Assembly: GCA_913045135.1 (NCBI GenBank)
Contig: CAJWQD010000007.1
Span: forward strand, 1 to 64,000
Length of the DNA: 64,000 nt
Direction: 5' to 3'
DNA from: an uncultured Flammeovirgaceae bacterium
GTDB taxonomy: Bacteria > Bacteroidota > Bacteroidia > Cytophagales > Cyclobacteriaceae
Shown in pieces: positions 1,343-10,197 of the stretch. The stretch's first letter is position 1, and each line of letters starts with the position of its first letter. The translations under genes and the position numbers were made by a program. The notes beneath the pieces were generated by a model. That model worked only from the letters and a program-made list of their open reading frames with translations, searched no databases and was not told the origin of the DNA.

Positions 1343-2557
1343 TTATTTTAGAATATCATGCCCCATACGGTCTCGTTTAGTTTCTAAATATTTTTTATTA
1401 TGGGTATTAGCGTCTATTTCAATAGAAATATTTTCTATAATTTCTAAACCATATCCAATTAAACCAACACGTTTTTTTGGATTATTTGTAATGAGTTTGA
1501 GCTTTGAAATACCCATATCCCTAATAATCTGAGCCCCTACCCCATAATCCCTTTCGTCTCCCTTAAATCCTAAATGCTCATTAGCCTCTACTGTATCCAG
1601 TCCTCTTTCCTGGAGTTTATAAGCCTTCAATTTATTGATTAGACCAATACCTCTGCCCTCTTGATTCATATAAATAACAGCTCCCTTTCCTTCTTTTTCT
1701 ACCATCCTCATGGCGTTGTGAAGTTGCACACCGCAATCACATCTGCAAGAACCAAAAATATCACCTGTAACACATGATGAGTGAACTCTAACCAACACAG
1801 GCTCATCAGCTTTCCATTGGCCTTTATAAAGTACCATGTGGTCATCCCCAGTATTAATTTGTCTATAAGCTTTAAGCTTAAAGTCACCAAAGTCTGTAGG
1901 AAGATCTATAAGAATTTGCTCCTTAATAAGAGATTCATTTCGAAGTCTATAAGCTATTAAATCATTTATAGAAACTAGCTTTAATTTAAACTTATCCGCA
2001 ATAACCCTTAAATCTGGTAGTCGAGCCATAGTTCCATCTTCTTTAAGTACTTCTATCAAAACACCTGCAGGTTTTAATCCTGCTAAACGTGCAAAATCTA
2101 TGGCAGCTTCAGTATGCCCTGCTCTTCTTAAAACTCCACCTTTTTTCGCTTTTAAGGGAAAAATATGACCTGGTCTGCCCAAATCACCCGGTTTAGTATT
2201 AGGATCTGCTAATGCATGAATAGTCAAAGATCTATCCGATGTAGAAATTCCAGTACTCGTCGCTTTGCTTTTCAAATCAACGCTTACTGTAAAAGGGGTA
2301 TCATGAAGAGCTGTATTTTTACCAACCATGAGTTCTAATTGAAGTTCATCACACCTTTCTTCGATCAAGGGAACACAAATCAATCCACGTCCCTCTCTTA
2401 CCATAAAATTGACTATTTCAGGATTTATTTTCTCAGCAGCACAAATAAAATCTCCCTCATTTTCACGACCTTCATCGTCAACCACTATGATGACTTGCCC
2501 TTTATTTATCGCTTCTATCGCTTCATCTATTGAATCGAGTTTAATATCTTCTTGCAT
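1343..2557 (-). CDS. ribBA: Bifunctional 3,4-dihydroxy-2-butanone-4-phosphate synthase / GTP cyclohydrolase II
   Basis: A 404-residue fusion of the two enzymes that supply both precursors of riboflavin. Residues 1-205 are the RibB domain, with the acidic [11 protein letters not shown] metal/substrate loop and [16 protein letters not shown]. Residues 210-404 are the RibA domain, with the zinc-binding cysteines in [17 protein letters not shown] and the catalytic region [13 protein letters not shown]. Both active sites appear complete, so it should make DHBP from ribulose 5-phosphate and the pyrimidine intermediate from GTP. It follows dnaG by 27 bp and precedes the small secreted protein and surE. 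The length is normal for the fused form. Confidence 0.96.
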
Positions 2558-2584
2558 AAGAATGTTTTAGATAATTTATAACAA

Positions 2585-4510
2585 TTATTTTACGGTTACG
2601 TTCCCTATAATTTTGGCAATTTCCATTTCAGTTTGCTTCAAATTACTGATTTCATCTAATAAATTATCTATTTCGCCATCCTTTGCAGTTTTCAATTTTT
2701 TAATTTGAACTTCTATTAAATGTTGTATCACCCTGAACTTAAAGCGCAAGATATTAGAATAAGTTACGTCTTTGATATAATCTTCTTCCTGGGGGACGTC
2801 AATGTGATATTTTTCCTTCCAAAATTCACTAATTTCGTATTTTGGAGCGCACAAATCAATAACCGTTTTTTGAATTTCTGGATCTTCAATAGACAAAAAA
2901 TACTCAATATTTAAAGGTAAATTTTTATTATTACGCTGAATCATTAACTGAAATATTTTATTGTATACAGGATGGGTGAATTCAATATCTTCAGACTCAT
3001 CGATAAAATAATCCCATAACTTAATCTCTTTCTTGTTTAACTTTTGAATGATCTCATCTCCATAATTTAAAAGTACTCTAATACTTTCTTTTTCTTGATA
3101 TGCAATGATTTTTGAATAATCAGTAATCTTACTTTCATCTAATTCCAAAGGAAGATATACTGAAGCCTCTTTATGTTGCGATCCCTTTTGGTTAAAACGG
3201 TTCCGAGTTATTAAAATCTTATTTTGTTCTGCAATCAAGATTTCCTCACTGATTTGCAATACATCACTACATTCTTTCAAATAAACTGATCTCTTGATGG
3301 CGTCACCTATTTTGGAGATACTCTCTACAATGTCTCTGACCGCTCCCGCCTTCTTAATCGGATCATCATTTATACCATCAATCAATAGCGATGTTTTAAA
3401 TTTGATAAAATCAACTGCTCCTTCAGTCAAAAAATGGACATAAGCAGTGGCTCCTAACTTATGGCTATAACTGTCTGGATCCTCACCATCCGGAAAAGTA
3501 ACCGCACGCACGTTAAGACCCCCCTCCAATAATATATCTATACCTCTAAACGAGGCACGTATTCCCGGTGCATCACCATCATAAAGTACAGTGACATTTT
3601 GAGTATATCTTTTGATCAGTTTTACCTGGTCTTCGCTTAAGGCAGTACCTGACGAGGAAACTACATTTTTTACACCGATTTGATGCATGGATATTACATC
3701 TGTATAACCCTCTACTAAATAGCAATTATCCTCTTGTCTTATTTCCTTCTTAGATTGAAACAACCCGTACAGTACCCTACTTTTATTATAAAGTTCAGAT
3801 TCAGGTGAATTTAAATATTTGGGTTGGTTTTTAGATATATCTGAACCAAGAGCTCTTGCACCAAAAGCAATAGTTTTACCGGTGACATTTTGTATCGGGA
3901 ACATGACCCTACCTCTGAAACGATCATAAACCTTATTTTCTTTACTTACAACCAAACCTGCTGCTTCCAAATTTTCTTTCGTAAGACCCTTTTTGATCCC
4001 TTCTTGATAGAAATTATTCCAAACATTTAAGCTATAACCCAGATTGAAAGATTCAATGATCTCATCGGAAAAGCCACGTTCTTTGAAATAGGTTAAACCA
4101 ATAGACTTCCCTTCCTCATTTGTGTTTAATACCTTTTGAAAATAGTCGGAGGCATATTGCAGTACAATATATAAGCTCTCGCGCCGATTTTGTACCTCTT
4201 GAATCTCATCAGTTTGAATTTCTTCTTCAATAGCAATATTATATTTATCGGCAAGATATTTGAGTGCTTCAACGTAACTCAATCCATCAACTTCCATAAC
4301 AAAGGAAATGGCATCACCACCTTTTCCTGAACTAAAGCATTTAAATATGCCTTTTGAAGGTACTACGTAAAAAGAAGGTGTTTTTTCGTTCGTAAAAGGA
4401 CTCAAAGCTTTTAAGCTAGAGCCCGATTTTTTAAGATTTACAAAATCACTAACCACCTCAACAATATTCATTGCCATTTTTATATCATCAATTGTCGAGG
4501 GTTTAATCAT
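2585..4510 (-). CDS. dnaG: DNA primase DnaG with a degenerate zinc-binding domain
   Basis: A 641-residue primase that makes RNA primers at the replication fork. The N-terminal CHC2 region (residues 1-100), the catalytic core with TOPRIM (about 255-345, EGYTDVISM and YDGDAPG) and the C-terminal helicase-interaction region are all present. The N-terminal fold is recognisable from NEKTPSF and SGKGGDA. However, the four zinc ligands expected at C37, H40, C58 and C61 read S37, T40, C58 and S61, so a normal zinc site cannot form. The TOPRIM acidic residues are intact, so the enzyme is likely active and the loss looks like a lineage feature rather than decay. It is the first gene of the dnaG-ribBA-surE operon. 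Confidence 0.95.
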   Translation of the reverse strand: MIKPSTIDDIKMAMNIVEVVSDFVNLKKSGSSLKALSPFTNEKTPSFYVVPSKGIFKCFSSGKGGDAISFVMEVDGLSYVEALKYLADKYNIAIEEEIQTDEIQEVQNRRESLYIVLQYASDYFQKVLNTNEEGKSIGLTYFKERGFSDEIIESFNLGYSLNVWNNFYQEGIKKGLTKENLEAAGLVVSKENKVYDRFRGRVMFPIQNVTGKTIAFGARALGSDISKNQPKYLNSPESELYNKSRVLYGLFQSKKEIRQEDNCYLVEGYTDVISMHQIGVKNVVSSSGTALSEDQVKLIKRYTQNVTVLYDGDAPGIRASFRGIDILLEGGLNVRAVTFPDGEDPDSYSHKLGATAYVHFLTEGAVDFIKFKTSLLIDGINDDPIKKAGAVRDIVESISKIGDAIKRSVYLKECSDVLQISEEILIAEQNKILITRNRFNQKGSQHKEASVYLPLELDESKITDYSKIIAYQEKESIRVLLNYGDEIIQKLNKKEIKLWDYFIDESEDIEFTHPVYNKIFQLMIQRNNKNLPLNIEYFLSIEDPEIQKTVIDLCAPKYEISEFWKEKYHIDVPQEEDYIKDVTYSNILRFKFRVIQHLIEVQIKKLKTAKDGEIDNLLDEISNLKQTEMEIAKIIGNVTVK

Positions 4511-4529
4511 TGAACAAATAATTCTTTTT

Positions 4530-4537
4530 CAAAAGTA
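4530..4537 (-). promoter_or_regulatory. Bacteroidota -7 promoter motif for dnaG
   Basis: The minus strand reads TACTTTTG, matching the Bacteroidota -7 consensus TAnnTTTG, 19 bp before the dnaG ATG. No convincing -33 TTTG at the usual spacing was found, so this is a motif match only. Confidence 0.4.
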
Positions 4538-5850
4538 ACACTTATGGGTTTTTGATAAAACAAGTCCTTAATTTAACTTTCAAAGGTTTATCTTTAATTT
4601 GACAAATCAAGCCTTATAATACCGTTAAACAATTCTATTTTTTTATTGATAAAATAAAAAATATTCCTACAGCTTTTTGAGAGATTGATATAATTAAATA
4701 CTCTTTTTTTTGATCTCCAAATTAAAAAATGTTATAAAAACGCAGTTATTCAGATCTTGTTTTACTGAACGTTTCTCTATCTACTACTAGATAAGATGAG
4801 CTATCCGAAAGGTAGTTTTTTAAATATTTCAGTAGTAGATTCAAAAAATAATAAAAGCGTTGTTAACCTCTAAAAAACTGTATTTGATAAAATCTGTATT
4901 ATTTGTATAGCGTATGTTTTATATTCATATCATTTAAAAGGTAACTTGTGGAGAAATCTGTTACTACTAGCTGTTTTATTTTTTTGCACAATTGAACCTT
5001 ATAAATTCTGATTACTCCAATAACTCTATCGTTTCTTTTTAGGTTAACCGCTACATGTAGTAATTATTTAAATAATTTTACTTTTTATTAATTACATAAG
5101 CATACTTTACGAGATCCTTTTGAGACGAAGGATTTGACATCATTCTTAATATCACGTATAAATAACCATTTCTATTTCCCATTTTAATCACTTTTATACC
5201 TTTTTATGTTTAAATTATGATTAATGTATCAAATAGAGATTTAGAGATGCTCCCTATATTTTGGAGGTATCATTTTACGATTTCTTGTATGTCTGATTTA
5301 TTAATTTGTCTAGAATTTAATAATATGTGGTAATAAATCATCATACCCTCAAATCGGAAAGTAAAGCAATCGAAAAAAAATACAATTAATGTTTAATTAT
5401 TTAATAAAAACTTTGAGCACAAATAAAATCTTGGATTTGTCTAAGACATTTAAATATTTTTCTGTTCAGGGAATATATTCTCAATTGCATTACTTCTGAT
5501 TAGATGACTCATCTCTATCATGAGTATACTAGTCAAAACGTCGCTTCTTAGTATTTCAAAATTAGCCTAAGACTAATACAATTTAAGACTGTTATATTCA
5601 AGATCACATATTTTCCTTTTCACCAAAATTGAAGATTGATTAAATTAGTTCTCATTAGGAAGAAAGATGTAGGAAATACAAAAAGCTGATTATAACTTAG
5701 GAACTTTTTTCTTCATTATTCAGTTGAAAATTTTTAATTTATTGATTATTTATCAATGCTTTGAAAACATTTTAAAAGTGCCTATATTGGTCGAAAAAAG
5801 GGATTATCTTAAGAATTATTTAATTCTACATTAAAACCTACATTAAGAAA
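4538..5850. other. Long AT-rich spacer between dnaG and mrp, no gene recognised
   Basis: About 1.3 kb without a confident gene between the divergent dnaG and mrp. On the minus strand two short stop-free stretches look somewhat protein-like: 5078-5182 (ATG start, 34 residues, begins MGNRNGYLYVILRMMS) and 5450-5566 (38 residues, contains RSDVLTSILMIEMSHLIRS). I could not match either to a family. A 10-bp inverted repeat ATCTACTACT / AGTAGTAGAT sits at 4779-4788 and 4831-4840, and TACTACTAG recurs at 4962-4970. Given the decayed genes in other spacers of this window, this may be the residue of one or more lost genes. Confidence 0.4.
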
Positions 5851-6945
5851 ATGGCTATAACAAAAAAAGCTTTACTCAAAGCGCTGAGCACCGTGCAAGA
5901 TCCTGATTTAAAACAAGATCTAGTCACCCTAGATATGATAAAAAATATTAAAATTGAAGCAAAAAAAGTTTCTTTTGATGTAGTTCTTACCACTCCTGCA
6001 TGCCCATTGAAAGAATTGATTAGAAAGGAATGTGAAAATGCTCTTTTAGAGACTTTCGATAATGCCGTTGCTTTTTTAATTAACATGACGTCAAACGTTA
6101 CCACCATAAGAGATAAAGGCCCTCTAATTCCGCAAGTGAAAAACATCATTGCAGTGGCCTCTGGTAAAGGTGGTGTAGGAAAGTCTACGACAACTGCTAA
6201 TTTGGCCGTAGCTTTGGCAAAAACGGGCGCTAAAGTTGGTATTATTGATGCTGATATTTTTGGTCCAAGCATTCCAACTATGTTCAATTGTGAAAATGAG
6301 CAACCTGCGGTAAAGGTGGAGGGTGGGCGTAATATGATTATCCCTATCAAGCAATATAGCGTACAATTAATGTCTATCGGTTTTTTAACGCCTGCCGAGA
6401 ATGCCGTTGTATGGCGAGGGCCAATGGCTAGCTCAGCCTTCAAACAATTCATAGGTGATACTAAATGGAATGATTTGGACTACCTCCTAATCGACTTACC
6501 ACCTGGCACCAGCGATATTCATCTAACCTTAGTTCAAACTTTACCGGTGACTGGGGCCGTCATAGTTACTACGCCACAAAAAGTAGCTCTCGCAGATGCT
6601 CAAAAAGGACTGGCTATGTTTAAACAACCACCAATTAATGTACCAGTCCTGGGAATTGTTGAAAATATGGCTTTTTTCACTCCTGAAGAATTACCTAATT
6701 CTAAATACTTTATATTTGGAGAAGAAGGGGGTGCTAAATTTGCAAAAAAGAACAAAGTGCCTCTTTTAGGTCAGATTCCAATCGTTCAGTCCATCAGAGA
6801 AAGTAGCGATAATGGATATCCAGCCGTAATGACTGATGGGATTATTGCAGAAGCTTATATGCAGCTAGCAGCAGAGCTGGCAAGACAAGTGGCCATCAGA
6901 AATGCCAAAAAAGATAAGACGCAAGTCATTGAAGTTACAGTCTAA
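5851..6945 (+). CDS. mrp: Mrp/ApbC-type iron-sulfur cluster carrier ATPase
   Basis: A 364-residue P-loop ATPase of the Mrp/NBP35 family that carries Fe-S clusters to apoproteins. Residues 1-90 form a MIP18/DUF59-like domain. The deviant Walker A GKGGVGKST starts at residue 105, followed by DADIFGPSIPT and the Walker B region LIDLPPGTSD. The ENMAFF segment seen in other Mrp proteins is present, but the CxxC of some members is not: the following stretch is TPEELPNSKYF. It is immediately followed, 4 bp downstream, by a NifU-like scaffold, which supports a joint role in cluster assembly and transfer. The ATG start gives the normal family length. Confidence 0.93.
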   Translation: MAITKKALLKALSTVQDPDLKQDLVTLDMIKNIKIEAKKVSFDVVLTTPACPLKELIRKECENALLETFDNAVAFLINMTSNVTTIRDKGPLIPQVKNIIAVASGKGGVGKSTTTANLAVALAKTGAKVGIIDADIFGPSIPTMFNCENEQPAVKVEGGRNMIIPIKQYSVQLMSIGFLTPAENAVVWRGPMASSAFKQFIGDTKWNDLDYLLIDLPPGTSDIHLTLVQTLPVTGAVIVTTPQKVALADAQKGLAMFKQPPINVPVLGIVENMAFFTPEELPNSKYFIFGEEGGAKFAKKNKVPLLGQIPIVQSIRESSDNGYPAVMTDGIIAEAYMQLAAELARQVAIRNAKKDKTQVIEVTV

Positions 6946-6949
6946 ATAA

Positions 6950-7201
6950 ATGAATAGCTCAGACTTAAAAGAAAGAATAGAGTTCGCACTGACCAATATT
7001 AGACCTTATCTTGAGGCTGATGGAGGTGATGTACGTATAGTAGAAATTAAAAAAGATACCGTTTTCCTAGAGCTATTGGGAAATTGTGGTACCTGCCCCA
7101 TGTCTGCCATGTCGCTAAAAGCAGGTGTTGAAGAAGCTATTAAACGCGAGGCTCCCGAAATTTTGCATGTAGAAGCCCTGAACCTAATGCATGAGTCATG
7201 A
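6950..7201 (+). CDS. NifU C-terminal domain Fe-S scaffold protein
   Basis: An 83-residue stand-alone NifU C-terminal (Nfu) domain. It shows the diagnostic YLEADGGDVRIVEI opening and the cluster-binding GNCGTCPMSAMSLKAGVE, in which the CxxC pair binds a 4Fe-4S cluster between two subunits. The protein acts as a scaffold or carrier for Fe-S clusters in the cytoplasm. It starts 4 bp after mrp, so the two are certainly co-transcribed. It lacks the N-terminal degenerate domain of NfuA, as is usual for the short bacterial form. Confidence 0.93.
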   Translation: MNSSDLKERIEFALTNIRPYLEADGGDVRIVEIKKDTVFLELLGNCGTCPMSAMSLKAGVEEAIKREAPEILHVEALNLMHES

Positions 7202-7236
7202 TACCCATTTGATATTGCATTTACAAATTAATATTC

Positions 7237-10197
7237 ATGCCATTAAGCAGGCTCTTATTCATAGCAGCTTTTTTTTCGTTCATTGACGGATTAAGTCAAG
7301 TGAGGTGCGGATTAGATGATTATTTTCCACATAAAGAATCGGTAGATCAGTTTGAAAAATGGCTTTCAAATCATCGTATAAATGCTGTAGCTCCTTTTAA
7401 TAGCCCTCTAAAAACTAAAAAAACACTCAATATACCTGTAGTTTTTCATATCATTCACCGCGGAGAAAACCTTGGAACGGGTACCAATCTGCCAGATGAG
7501 AAAATAATAGAGCAATTGCAAATTCTAAATGAAGATTTCAGAAAAGCAAATGACGATCATATACTCACCCCATTGGAGTTTTTAGATAAAGCAGCAGATA
7601 CTGAAATAAATTTTATTTTAGCCAAGCAAGACAGTGAAGGCCTCCCCTCTCAAGGAATCACAAGACAACAAGGAAATCAAAATACTTATAATCGTTCTGA
7701 AGAGGGTATCTTGTACGCAGAAAATTATTGGCCTGCAGAAAATTATCTTAATATATACATCGCAGACTTGGAGGACTATCTTGGTTGGGCGACTTTTCCT
7801 TTTTCAGACTTGGAGGGTAACATAGAAATCAATAATGATCGATTATTGGATGGTGTAGCCATTGATTATAAATGGCTGGGAGTTAATGAAAATACAGGAA
7901 GTTTTAGTAGCTATGGCAGAACCCTTACGCATGAAATTGGTCATTATTTTGGTTTGAGACATCTCTGGGGAAATCAGCAAAACTGTAGTACCGATGATTA
8001 TTGTATAGATACCCCTTATCAATCTACCTCTTATAGCGGAGAATGTCCTTCTCAAACGGTTATTAGTTGTGGGACCTCTGATATGTATTCAAATTATATG
8101 AATTATACTGACGATGCTTGCATGAATATTTTCACTCAAAATCAAAAAGAAAGAATGCATGCCGTTTTGAATCATAGTCCGCGCCGAAATACACTGCTAC
8201 ATTCACCCGCTTTGGATAATCCCATTGTAGCTTTAAATGACTTGGGAATAAAAACTATGAATGCGACCCCTTTGAACGATTGTAATAGTCTTCTTTTACC
8301 AAAGGTTGTAGTACGAAATTATGGAACAAACGTCATTGAAAATTTTATAATCTCATTTTTTTTAAACGATACTTTAATCGAATCACTTGGTATAACCGAG
8401 CGCTACCAGCCTCTCGAAATCGATACCATCGACTTTCAACCAATTACAGTGGATAATGTCATAGATCCAGTACTAAGCTTTCAGATAGGCTTTGTTAACC
8501 AAGCTGAAGATGGTAATTTGAATAATAATTTGTTGAGTATACCCCTTCCAAACTATGTAACAAGGACTTTACCTTTTTTTATGGATTTTGAAAGAACTAT
8601 TGATTTTGAAACTACACTAGAACAAAATCAAATGAGTAATTGGGATACCGTTCTCTTAAATACAAATGATCTCCAGAATCAAGCCATCTCCATCGATTTT
8701 ACAAATGATCCCACTTCATTAGGATTATTTGATTATCTATTTACCCCCAATTTTAACCTGAGTAATTACACCATCCCACAAATTTCATTTAAATACGCAT
8801 ACCAAAGTACAGGATTAGCTCACCAACAAGATGGTCTCATTGTTGCCCTCTCTTATGATTGTGGTCAAAACTTTTTCTCTGAAGATTATTTAGTTGAATT
8901 ATACGGTCCAAATCTAGCTTCTGTAATTTCAACAAGCTCCTCTTTTTTTGCTCCTAAAGATACTTCAGAATGGAAAAAAATGACAATTGATTTGATGGAT
9001 TTCCAAGATCATAAAAATATTCAATTTGCTTTTATTGGCCAATCTAGCGCTGCTTCACAATTATACTTGGATGACATAAGAGTAATTGATATTGCCAATT
9101 TTAATTTTGACCTCCATTTAGAATTTCAAAAAAAAGTTGCTCTAGTTACCTGTGAGAGCGAGCAAATTATCAGCCTTAACCTTGAAAATAGAGGTGATCA
9201 AACACATAGTGATGTTAAGCTTAATATCTCTATAAATGATATTCTAAAGCCTTCCCAACTTATCACAAGCTCCTTAGATAATGGTAAATCTGTTTCATAT
9301 GAGCTTACTATTGAAGAGTTAAATATAGGCTTATCAAACTTTAAAATTTGGGTATCAACCACAAATGGATCTGCTCACGAATATATTAGTGACACCCTTC
9401 AATGGTCTACTACCTTGAACGATCTTGAAGTTGAATTACCCATAAAACTAGATTTTGAAGAAAGAGATGATTGGATCATTGCTAATAAGGAAAATAAGCC
9501 CCTTTGGCAACCTGCCAGTTTTCAAAATAATAATTATTTAATGGCCAGTGGTTATGAAAATGTAGATTTGGGAAATGAGAGTTGGTTAATCAGTCCCTTA
9601 TTGTATTCCGGATATTTAGATAGCATGAGTCTTCAATTTGATTTTGCTTATCAAAGAATATTAGGCAAAAATGATCGACTGAGGGTACTTATCTCGACAG
9701 ACTGTGGAGAAAGTTTTGATCACGTTATTTTTGACAAAAATAGCGAACAGCTGAGCAATATTATCTCAAATGAGAACTTTCTGATAAAAACAAATACGAT
9801 ATGGCAGAATGTGTTCATTGATCTGAATAATTTTTTAAATGAGGAATCACTACGTATCGCCTTTGTTTTTACTAATGGCAATGGAAATAACTTGTTCTTA
9901 GACAACATTGAATTCACAAACACAGGTAATTCTAAACGTCCTAAATTTGATGATTGGGTCAACTTTTACCCCAATCCGGTTTCAAAATATATCAATGTCA
10001 GCTTTAACTTATCTCAGAAAAAGGATGTCAAAGTTCAACTTGTAGACATTTTAGGTCAAATACATCAACAACTAGAATACACCCAATTATTGAATGAAAC
10101 AGTACAATTAGAGGTCCAAAAACTATCTGGCCTCTTTTTCCTCATAATTACAGAATCAAATGAACGTTTTATTGAAAAGGTAATTATTAAGAATTGA
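7237..10197 (+). CDS. Secreted M43 (pappalysin-like) metalloprotease with T9SS sorting domain
   Basis: A 986-residue exported zinc protease. A Sec signal peptide covers about residues 1-20. The M43 catalytic domain carries HEIGHYFGLRHLWG starting at H232, giving the HExxHxxGxxH zinc site, followed by the SNYMNYTDD methionine turn. The middle part (about 330-900) is a series of beta-rich modules including two MAM-like or 'choice-of-anchor' segments. The last 80 residues (NFYPNPVSKYINVSF onward) are a type A T9SS C-terminal sorting domain. The protein is therefore secreted to the surface by T9SS and probably degrades extracellular protein. It sits between the Fe-S genes and ddl with no obvious functional link. 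Confidence 0.9.
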   Translation: MPLSRLLFIAAFFSFIDGLSQVRCGLDDYFPHKESVDQFEKWLSNHRINAVAPFNSPLKTKKTLNIPVVFHIIHRGENLGTGTNLPDEKIIEQLQILNEDFRKANDDHILTPLEFLDKAADTEINFILAKQDSEGLPSQGITRQQGNQNTYNRSEEGILYAENYWPAENYLNIYIADLEDYLGWATFPFSDLEGNIEINNDRLLDGVAIDYKWLGVNENTGSFSSYGRTLTHEIGHYFGLRHLWGNQQNCSTDDYCIDTPYQSTSYSGECPSQTVISCGTSDMYSNYMNYTDDACMNIFTQNQKERMHAVLNHSPRRNTLLHSPALDNPIVALNDLGIKTMNATPLNDCNSLLLPKVVVRNYGTNVIENFIISFFLNDTLIESLGITERYQPLEIDTIDFQPITVDNVIDPVLSFQIGFVNQAEDGNLNNNLLSIPLPNYVTRTLPFFMDFERTIDFETTLEQNQMSNWDTVLLNTNDLQNQAISIDFTNDPTSLGLFDYLFTPNFNLSNYTIPQISFKYAYQSTGLAHQQDGLIVALSYDCGQNFFSEDYLVELYGPNLASVISTSSSFFAPKDTSEWKKMTIDLMDFQDHKNIQFAFIGQSSAASQLYLDDIRVIDIANFNFDLHLEFQKKVALVTCESEQIISLNLENRGDQTHSDVKLNISINDILKPSQLITSSLDNGKSVSYELTIEELNIGLSNFKIWVSTTNGSAHEYISDTLQWSTTLNDLEVELPIKLDFEERDDWIIANKENKPLWQPASFQNNNYLMASGYENVDLGNESWLISPLLYSGYLDSMSLQFDFAYQRILGKNDRLRVLISTDCGESFDHVIFDKNSEQLSNIISNENFLIKTNTIWQNVFIDLNNFLNEESLRIAFVFTNGNGNNLFLDNIEFTNTGNSKRPKFDDWVNFYPNPVSKYINVSFNLSQKKDVKVQLVDILGQIHQQLEYTQLLNETVQLEVQKLSGLFFLIITESNERFIEKVIIKN

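Follow-up and report, generated by a model that had tools for sequence, protein, structure and literature searches.

A DnaG primase whose N-terminal ribbon lacks zinc ligands, and its counterparts in Bacteroidota and green sulfur bacteria

The dnaG gene and its N-terminal ribbon

We analyzed the first 64,000 nucleotides of contig CAJWQD010000007.1 from an uncultured marine Flammeovirgaceae bacterium (assembly GCA_913045135.1; family Cyclobacteriaceae in GTDB), a stretch referred to below as the window. Near its start lies a gene for DNA primase, with the following parts.

2585..4510, minus strand: dnaG, DNA primase of 641 amino acids, the sole copy found (ORF translation and curated model match)
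4220..4504, minus strand: N-terminal ribbon domain (PF01807), residues 3-97, zinc ligands gone, a four-stranded sheet in the model
3752..4144, minus strand: DNAG_N, the N-terminal domain of the catalytic core, residues 123-253 (profile match)
3467..3721, minus strand: Toprim domain, residues 264-348, EGYTD and DGD intact (profile match)
3242..3400, minus strand: DnaB_bind domain match, residues 371-423 (profile match)

By all features tested except the zinc ligands, the window protein is DnaG as judged from its sequence. It scored 434.8 bits against the NCBIfam dnaG equivalog model TIGR01391 (cut-off 283.6), 107.7 bits against PF01807, the CHC2 zinc ribbon (cut-off 24.9), 80.2 bits against the Toprim model PF13155 (cut-off 22.1), and 35.7 bits against the DnaB_bind model PF10410 (cut-off 20.6). 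The motifs YLNSPES (232), EGYTD (267), and DGD (311) are all present, the last two in line with the initial annotation, which had described the TOPRIM residues as intact. The length of 641 amino acids, the dnaG equivalog score, and the single copy found in each of four genomes from the genus do not fit a CHC2/Toprim primase of a mobile element. Between dnaG and the next gene lies an A+T-rich gap of about 1.3 kb (4511-5850); that gene was read as a P-loop ATPase of the Mrp/ApbC type; the only ORF of at least 80 amino acids in this gap overlaps that neighboring gene, on the opposite strand. An Rfam search of positions 2000-7300 returned nothing at the gathering score.

In the solved relatives 1d0q and 2au3, the CHC2 ligand positions are C, H, C, and C, and they align with the window protein without gaps. 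With the same spacing, the window DnaG reads S37, T40, C58, and S61, and thus lacks the four-ligand set. Below, zinc forms are sequences with all four ligands (164 in our sample) and zinc-less sequences are those with one or none (106). The codons concerned, together with others that differ between the two types, are as follows.

4400..4402, minus strand: codon 37, AGT, Ser for the first ligand Cys; Ser in 106/106 zinc-less sequences
4391..4393, minus strand: codon 40, ACG, Thr for the ligand His; Thr in 57/106 zinc-less sequences
4337..4339, minus strand: codon 58, TGC, Cys, the single former ligand retained; Asp in 66/106 zinc-less sequences
4328..4330, minus strand: codon 61, TCA, Ser for the last ligand Cys; Ser or Thr in 106/106 zinc-less sequences
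4331..4333, minus strand: codon 60, Ser; Gly in 155/164 zinc forms, Ser in 106/106 zinc-less sequences
4409..4411, minus strand: codon 34, Lys; mostly hydrophobic in zinc forms
4367..4369, minus strand: codon 48, Tyr; mostly Ser, Thr, or Asn in zinc forms
4424..4426, minus strand: codon 29, Ser; mostly Arg or Lys in zinc forms
4340..4342, minus strand: codon 57, Lys, aligned with C. difficile K70 (trinucleotide specificity); Lys in 106/106 zinc-less sequences

The codons and the alignment to solved relatives confirm the four residues and the unchanged spacing reported in the initial annotation. Its description was exact, but the start that it gave, 4327, is one base too low, as codon 61 occupies 4328-4330. 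Given these residues, we suggest that the ribbon of the window DnaG should not bear the name zinc ribbon.

Two ways in which the loss could be only apparent, a second complete dnaG and ligands restored by a sequencing correction, were pursued in the window's genome and its genus-level relatives, and neither was found. The genome itself comprises 2.1 Mb in 97 contigs and is 81.7% complete; no second dnaG was found in it, its only other PF01807 hit (E=0.2) being a 58-amino-acid frame with an internal stop. Three genus mates, 94-99% complete, have one PF01807 match each at E<=1e-8. These three (L142, L143, L145) all read STCS at the ligand positions, as do an uncultured Marinoscillum contig (L173) and a Cyclobacteriaceae MAG (L174), which are 86-87% identical; L143 and L174, whose contigs have the same length, may be one assembly. 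Agreement among the five genus-level loci and the single match in each genome make an error of base calling, or an intact dnaG that escaped notice, very unlikely, and sequencing error as the source of the ligand loss was rejected on account of the relatives that read STCS. The earlier proposal that this lineage uses a zinc-less primase domain is supported, for the only DnaG found.

Elsewhere in the sample, genome G517 (95% complete, 3% contamination) has two full-length zinc-less dnaG genes (L118 and L121), reflecting either duplication or contamination. Five genomes that are 99% complete, G407 and G493 from the same family and G385, G056, and G153 from the phylum, gave no PF01807 match at E<=1e-8, and their DnaG ribbon is absent, split, or very divergent. 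Extra PF01807 matches in G534, G502, G442, G401, G518, and G405 lie in frames of 987-1,089 amino acids and are probably mobile-element primase fusions.

Distribution and recurring residues of zinc-less DnaG

We read 280 loci, which gave 270 sequences distinct over the first 190 residues. The sample is non-random. It draws on the best hits of a phylum search and the places listed there, own-family best hits and chosen lower-scoring places, chosen class-level genomes, low-scoring genomes selected from other classes, and a named scan with two patterns, the zinc-less motif and a Toprim-region motif common to both types. Four ligands were found in 164 of the 270 sequences, one in 43, and none in 63, and no sequence had two or three; 106 of 270 are thus zinc-less, a pattern beyond chance. 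The distribution of the two types is patchy. Family mates from outside the genus contributed 90 sequences, of which 37 are zinc forms and 53 are not. Named zinc-less carriers are Marinoscillum, Reichenbachiella, Shiella, Mucilaginibacter, Aquimarina, Tenacibaculum, Flavobacterium, and a MAG labeled Chitinophaga; named zinc forms are Marivirga, Algoriphagus, Pedobacter, Sphingobacterium, Pontibacter, Rufibacter, Larkinella, Dyadobacter, and records labeled Spirosoma. One of six distinct records ranked Bacteroidales is zinc-less and the other five are zinc forms.

In other classes, the 12 genomes that we read (families f16, f18, f29, and f50) are zinc-less without exception. All 12 carry PF02327 (BChl_A, the Fenna-Matthews-Olson protein), which is absent from the nine other genomes in the same search and which marks the 12 as green sulfur bacteria. 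One further genome, G109, is zinc-less in a family (f33) where two other members are zinc forms. Similar changes had been predicted for other Cytophagales, where they are indeed present, but that scope was too narrow, since flavobacteria, Mucilaginibacter, the MAG labeled Chitinophaga, a Bacteroidales MAG, and green sulfur bacteria have them as well. A few labels in the sample are doubtful: L190 and L191, labeled Spirosoma fluviale, share the ribbon motif of the Algoriphagus locus L193 and are probably mislabeled MAGs, and the same probably holds for L238, labeled Verrucomicrobia, which groups with Bacteroidia rows by its DnaG.

The residues that stand in for the ligands form a recurring package. 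S37, K57, S60, and S or T at 61 are each found in 106/106 zinc-less sequences, position 58 is either D (66) or C (40) in all 106, K or R occupies position 34 in 101/106, and Y, F, M, I, or V occupies position 48, again in 101/106. Only position 40 is variable among the former ligands (T 57, S 22, N 10, A 8, V 4, H 3, others 2). At position 60, the 164 zinc forms have G in 155, S in 7, and A in 2. We contrasted zinc-less with zinc-form rows in five lineages: Cytophagales (67 v 58), Sphingobacteriaceae (5 v 13), Bacteroidales and kin (2 v 13), Flavobacteriales (20 v 3), and green sulfur bacteria against other classes (12 v 13). In two of these contrasts, one side has just two or three rows. Positions 29, 33, 34, 37, 40, 48, 58, 60, 61, and 69 shifted the same way in four or all of the five contrasts. 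No newly recurring Cys or His was found in zinc-less rows in this five-lineage contrast. Sphingobacteriaceae (Mucilaginibacter and kin) are an exception to the package, being zinc-less yet zinc-form-like at 29 (R) and 34 (V), with T rather than a hydrophobic residue at 48. Over residues 101-440, the same criterion picked out a single position, 127; as it is borderline, at four of five contrasts, we take it as noise and reject compensation in the catalytic body.

The zinc-less ribbon domain is under purifying selection. In pairs of the window gene with the five genus-level loci, in which synonymous sites have diverged (pS 0.40-0.60), codons 1-100 have a dN/dS of 0.03-0.07 and codons 30-66 one of 0.02-0.04; in each pair these values are lower than that of the body (codons 101-430; 0.06-0.08). 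An AlphaFold model built from 22 zinc-less sequences (mean pLDDT 84.7, pTM 0.54) keeps four strands (27-29, 32-35, 47-50, and 55-58) and superimposes on zinc-bound 1d0q of B. stearothermophilus at 1.0 A over 92 columns. Such a model inherits the fold of its homologues; it is consistent with, not proof of, a metal-free fold and says nothing on stability without zinc.

Evolutionary history of the two ribbon types

Because the trees are quick ones and 51 of the 121 inner branches of the body tree are under 80, we give the number of origins as a range. On the body tree (residues 101-440, 124 rows), mapping of the ligand loss, which the initial annotation had suggested, gives 15 state changes, at least seven of them forced by starred branches (*); the state arose or moved several times. 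An earlier body tree of 94 rows also gives 15, with at least five forced. The ribbon domain without its ligand columns needs three changes on 94 rows (two forced) and six on 124 rows (three forced), and without ten signature columns it needs five and nine, respectively, with one forced in each; the body and domain sets of 124 rows differ by one row. A single clade of zinc-less rows was rejected in a thinned set of 5 v 18 rows (dlnL 96; the printed p of 1e-71 is not to be taken literally).

Removal of the ten signature columns places the green sulfur bacterial domain with zinc-form families from other classes (87) and pairs G109 with a zinc-form member of its own family (82). In the domain tree that omits the ligand columns alone, this pairing of G109 carries a flag as a possible long-branch artifact, although the body tree also puts G109 among zinc forms (99*). 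Because the green sulfur and G109 domains group with zinc-form rows, independent in-place conversion between classes is suggested.

A different history would have the zinc-less ribbon arise once or a few times and spread by recombination or lateral transfer of the dnaG 5´ end, perhaps from phage primases. Ribbon trees need far fewer changes than body trees (3 v 15; 6 v 15), which favors such spread and speaks against repeated origin. Convergence at about eight positions is also a lot to ask of repeated origin, and ancient exchange of short segments would explain the pattern too. In 54 genomes of the family, a single branch (99*) separates the two types in the ribbon tree that omits the ligand columns, and RpoB rejects one clade of the 18 zinc-form genomes (p-AU 7e-5, dlnL 115), again in favor of spread; the DnaG body of the same genomes needs seven changes and does not reject one clade (p-AU 0.21), which neither helps nor hurts. 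Phages could be a source, since zinc-less phage primases exist: that of Cellulophaga phage Ingeline_1 (L343, 301-1866) reads SVCS, and in a viral scan 78 of the 80 loci kept were zinc-less, with one CHCC and one without a readable domain, counts that show existence and not frequency because the zinc-less motif was one of the scan's two patterns. Many of the zinc-less primases at phage loci L347-L425 lie in frames of at least 1,000 amino acids, and others in frames of about 325.

Three observations run against spread. Without the signature columns, the green sulfur domain sits with other non-Bacteroidia rows, with modest support. Mucilaginibacter and its kin have the zinc-form-like residues at 29, 34, and 48 noted above. 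In Cytophagales, the difference between the types is concentrated in residues 31-40, unlike the outcome of whole-domain replacement: in pairs at 52-58% body identity, with ligand columns left out, identity over these residues is 0.49 for unlike pairs against 0.84 and 0.70 for like pairs, and the type difference shrinks in 21-30 and 41-60 and is no longer seen beyond residue 90. Across all rows, unlike pairs at 58-70% body identity (80 pairs, mostly Sphingobacteriaceae) show lower identity over most of residues 11-80. One spread through the whole phylum is weakened by the tree without signature columns, least so inside the Cyclobacteriaceae, and as an account of the data we consider spread from one or few origins rather unlikely. 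Within the Cyclobacteriaceae, the pattern would fit either exchange or sorting of two old types as short segments or the recurrence of linked replacements.

A more speculative picture, somewhat less likely than not, is that Bacteroidota have two interchangeable versions of this essential replication module, the zinc ribbon of DnaG and a zinc-free ribbon with the code S37 plus K57-[CD]-F-S-[ST]-G. The zinc-free ribbon would have originated independently at least in green sulfur bacteria, more than once in Bacteroidia, and in G109, with swaps of short cassettes in the Cyclobacteriaceae and further copies carried by phages.

A ribbon probably rebuilt without zinc

The reading that we prefer, and consider quite probable, is that the ribbon of the sole DnaG found was remodeled so that it folds and functions without zinc, in a form that evolved repeatedly from the zinc form and that may also be exchanged within the Cyclobacteriaceae. 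The four metal-holding residues would have given way to a mostly small, polar set on two loop turns (S37, T40, S60, S61, and C58 or D58), which could hold the turns together by hydrogen bonds with no metal bound, and K34 and the aromatic or hydrophobic residue at 48 would repack the sheet. Next to K57, the specificity lysine, such a ribbon would still offer the template to the Toprim core. We infer that the change ran from the ordinary zinc form to the zinc-free state, more than once in the phylum.

Retained template recognition is suggested by K57. The DnaG ribbon mediates sequence recognition according to a portion of PMC6163395, where the exact role of the zinc motif is called unresolved, and a portion of PMC5204125 describes the zinc-ribbon motif of the N-terminal domain as essential for primase function. 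The same portion reports that in the C. difficile primase CD1454, K70 beside the zinc site sets the preference for d(CCC), and that at the equivalent position G. stearothermophilus has His and A. aeolicus has Lys. At the aligned position 57, all 106 zinc-less sequences have K, green sulfur bacteria included, whereas the residue is H or Y in many of the zinc forms from other classes. The suggestion in the initial annotation that choice of the initiation site may differ is not supported; the invariant lysine argues for a kept, defined trinucleotide specificity in zinc-less DnaG. Because K57 aligns with K70 and is K in 106/106, we predict that priming is template-specific, with a d(CCC)-type preference, and needs no zinc.

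The site could instead still hold metal, through S, T, D, or C residues or others nearby, and the C or D at position 58 of every zinc-less sequence would suit such a role. We regard this as improbable, as all four original ligands are gone from 63 of the 106 sequences and the five-lineage contrast shows no recurrent new Cys or His. Little likelihood attaches, too, to a general avoidance of zinc, in which these genomes would shed structural zinc throughout. The sulfidic and open-sea habitats of several carriers are zinc-poor, a point in its favor, but among the 60 genomes used for RpoB, RpoC has its N-terminal four-Cys motif intact in 35 of the 36 that are zinc-less and in all 24 zinc forms. 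Where it was read, the motif is always at the same distance from the anchoring motif used; in the one zinc-less genome without an RpoC reading, rpoC lies outside the locus. Because the RpoC motif is intact, the ligand loss does not appear to be part of a wholesale abandonment of zinc ribbons, RpoC being the one protein compared. Decay of the ribbon to a non-functional state, which would yield ligand loss and has a precedent in the inactive primase module of animal Twinkle (PMC10557236 and PMC9860392, in part), is highly improbable and was rejected given the strong purifying selection (dN/dS), the fixed replacement residues, the sole DnaG found, and the intact Toprim motifs.

Among the papers listed in searches of the open-access literature, we found no statement on DnaG without zinc ligands in Bacteroidota or Chlorobi; mention elsewhere is possible, and the residues are plain in public sequences. 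The portions available of PMC6163395, PMC9425974, PMC10557236, PMC10218098, PMC5512222, PMC7824862, PMC4164334, and PMC5204125 do not report ligand loss in DnaG. The recurring, metal-free-looking residue set suggests that a part of the replication machinery thought to need zinc can be rebuilt without it. A natural ligand-free ribbon that arose repeatedly in an essential enzyme offers a direct test of the metal's share against that of the fold and neighboring residues, and the presence of both DnaG types within one family provides matched pairs. There is also a caution for primase inhibitors directed against these bacteria, in which a zinc site is not to be assumed.

Compared with known systems, the window protein is like other DnaG proteins (TIGR01391; 1d0q of B. 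stearothermophilus and 2au3 of A. aeolicus) in domain order, Toprim, helicase-binding domain, modeled ribbon fold, and spacing, and differs from 1d0q and 2au3 in the replacement of three of the four ligands, with G60S, K34, and Y48 in addition. It has in common with C. difficile CD1454 the lysine beside the zinc site (K70 and, by alignment, K57), but CD1454 keeps the CHC2 zinc motif and the window DnaG does not. The N-terminal domain of animal Twinkle is likewise a primase-type module that departs from an ancestral active form; however, animal Twinkle has lost primase activity, whereas the window DnaG has intact Toprim motifs and no second DnaG was found. The C+/C- pairs of ribosomal proteins also match a zinc ribbon with a metal-free version, as paralogues that are switched by zinc supply. 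Unlike these pairs, dnaG is one gene, of either type.
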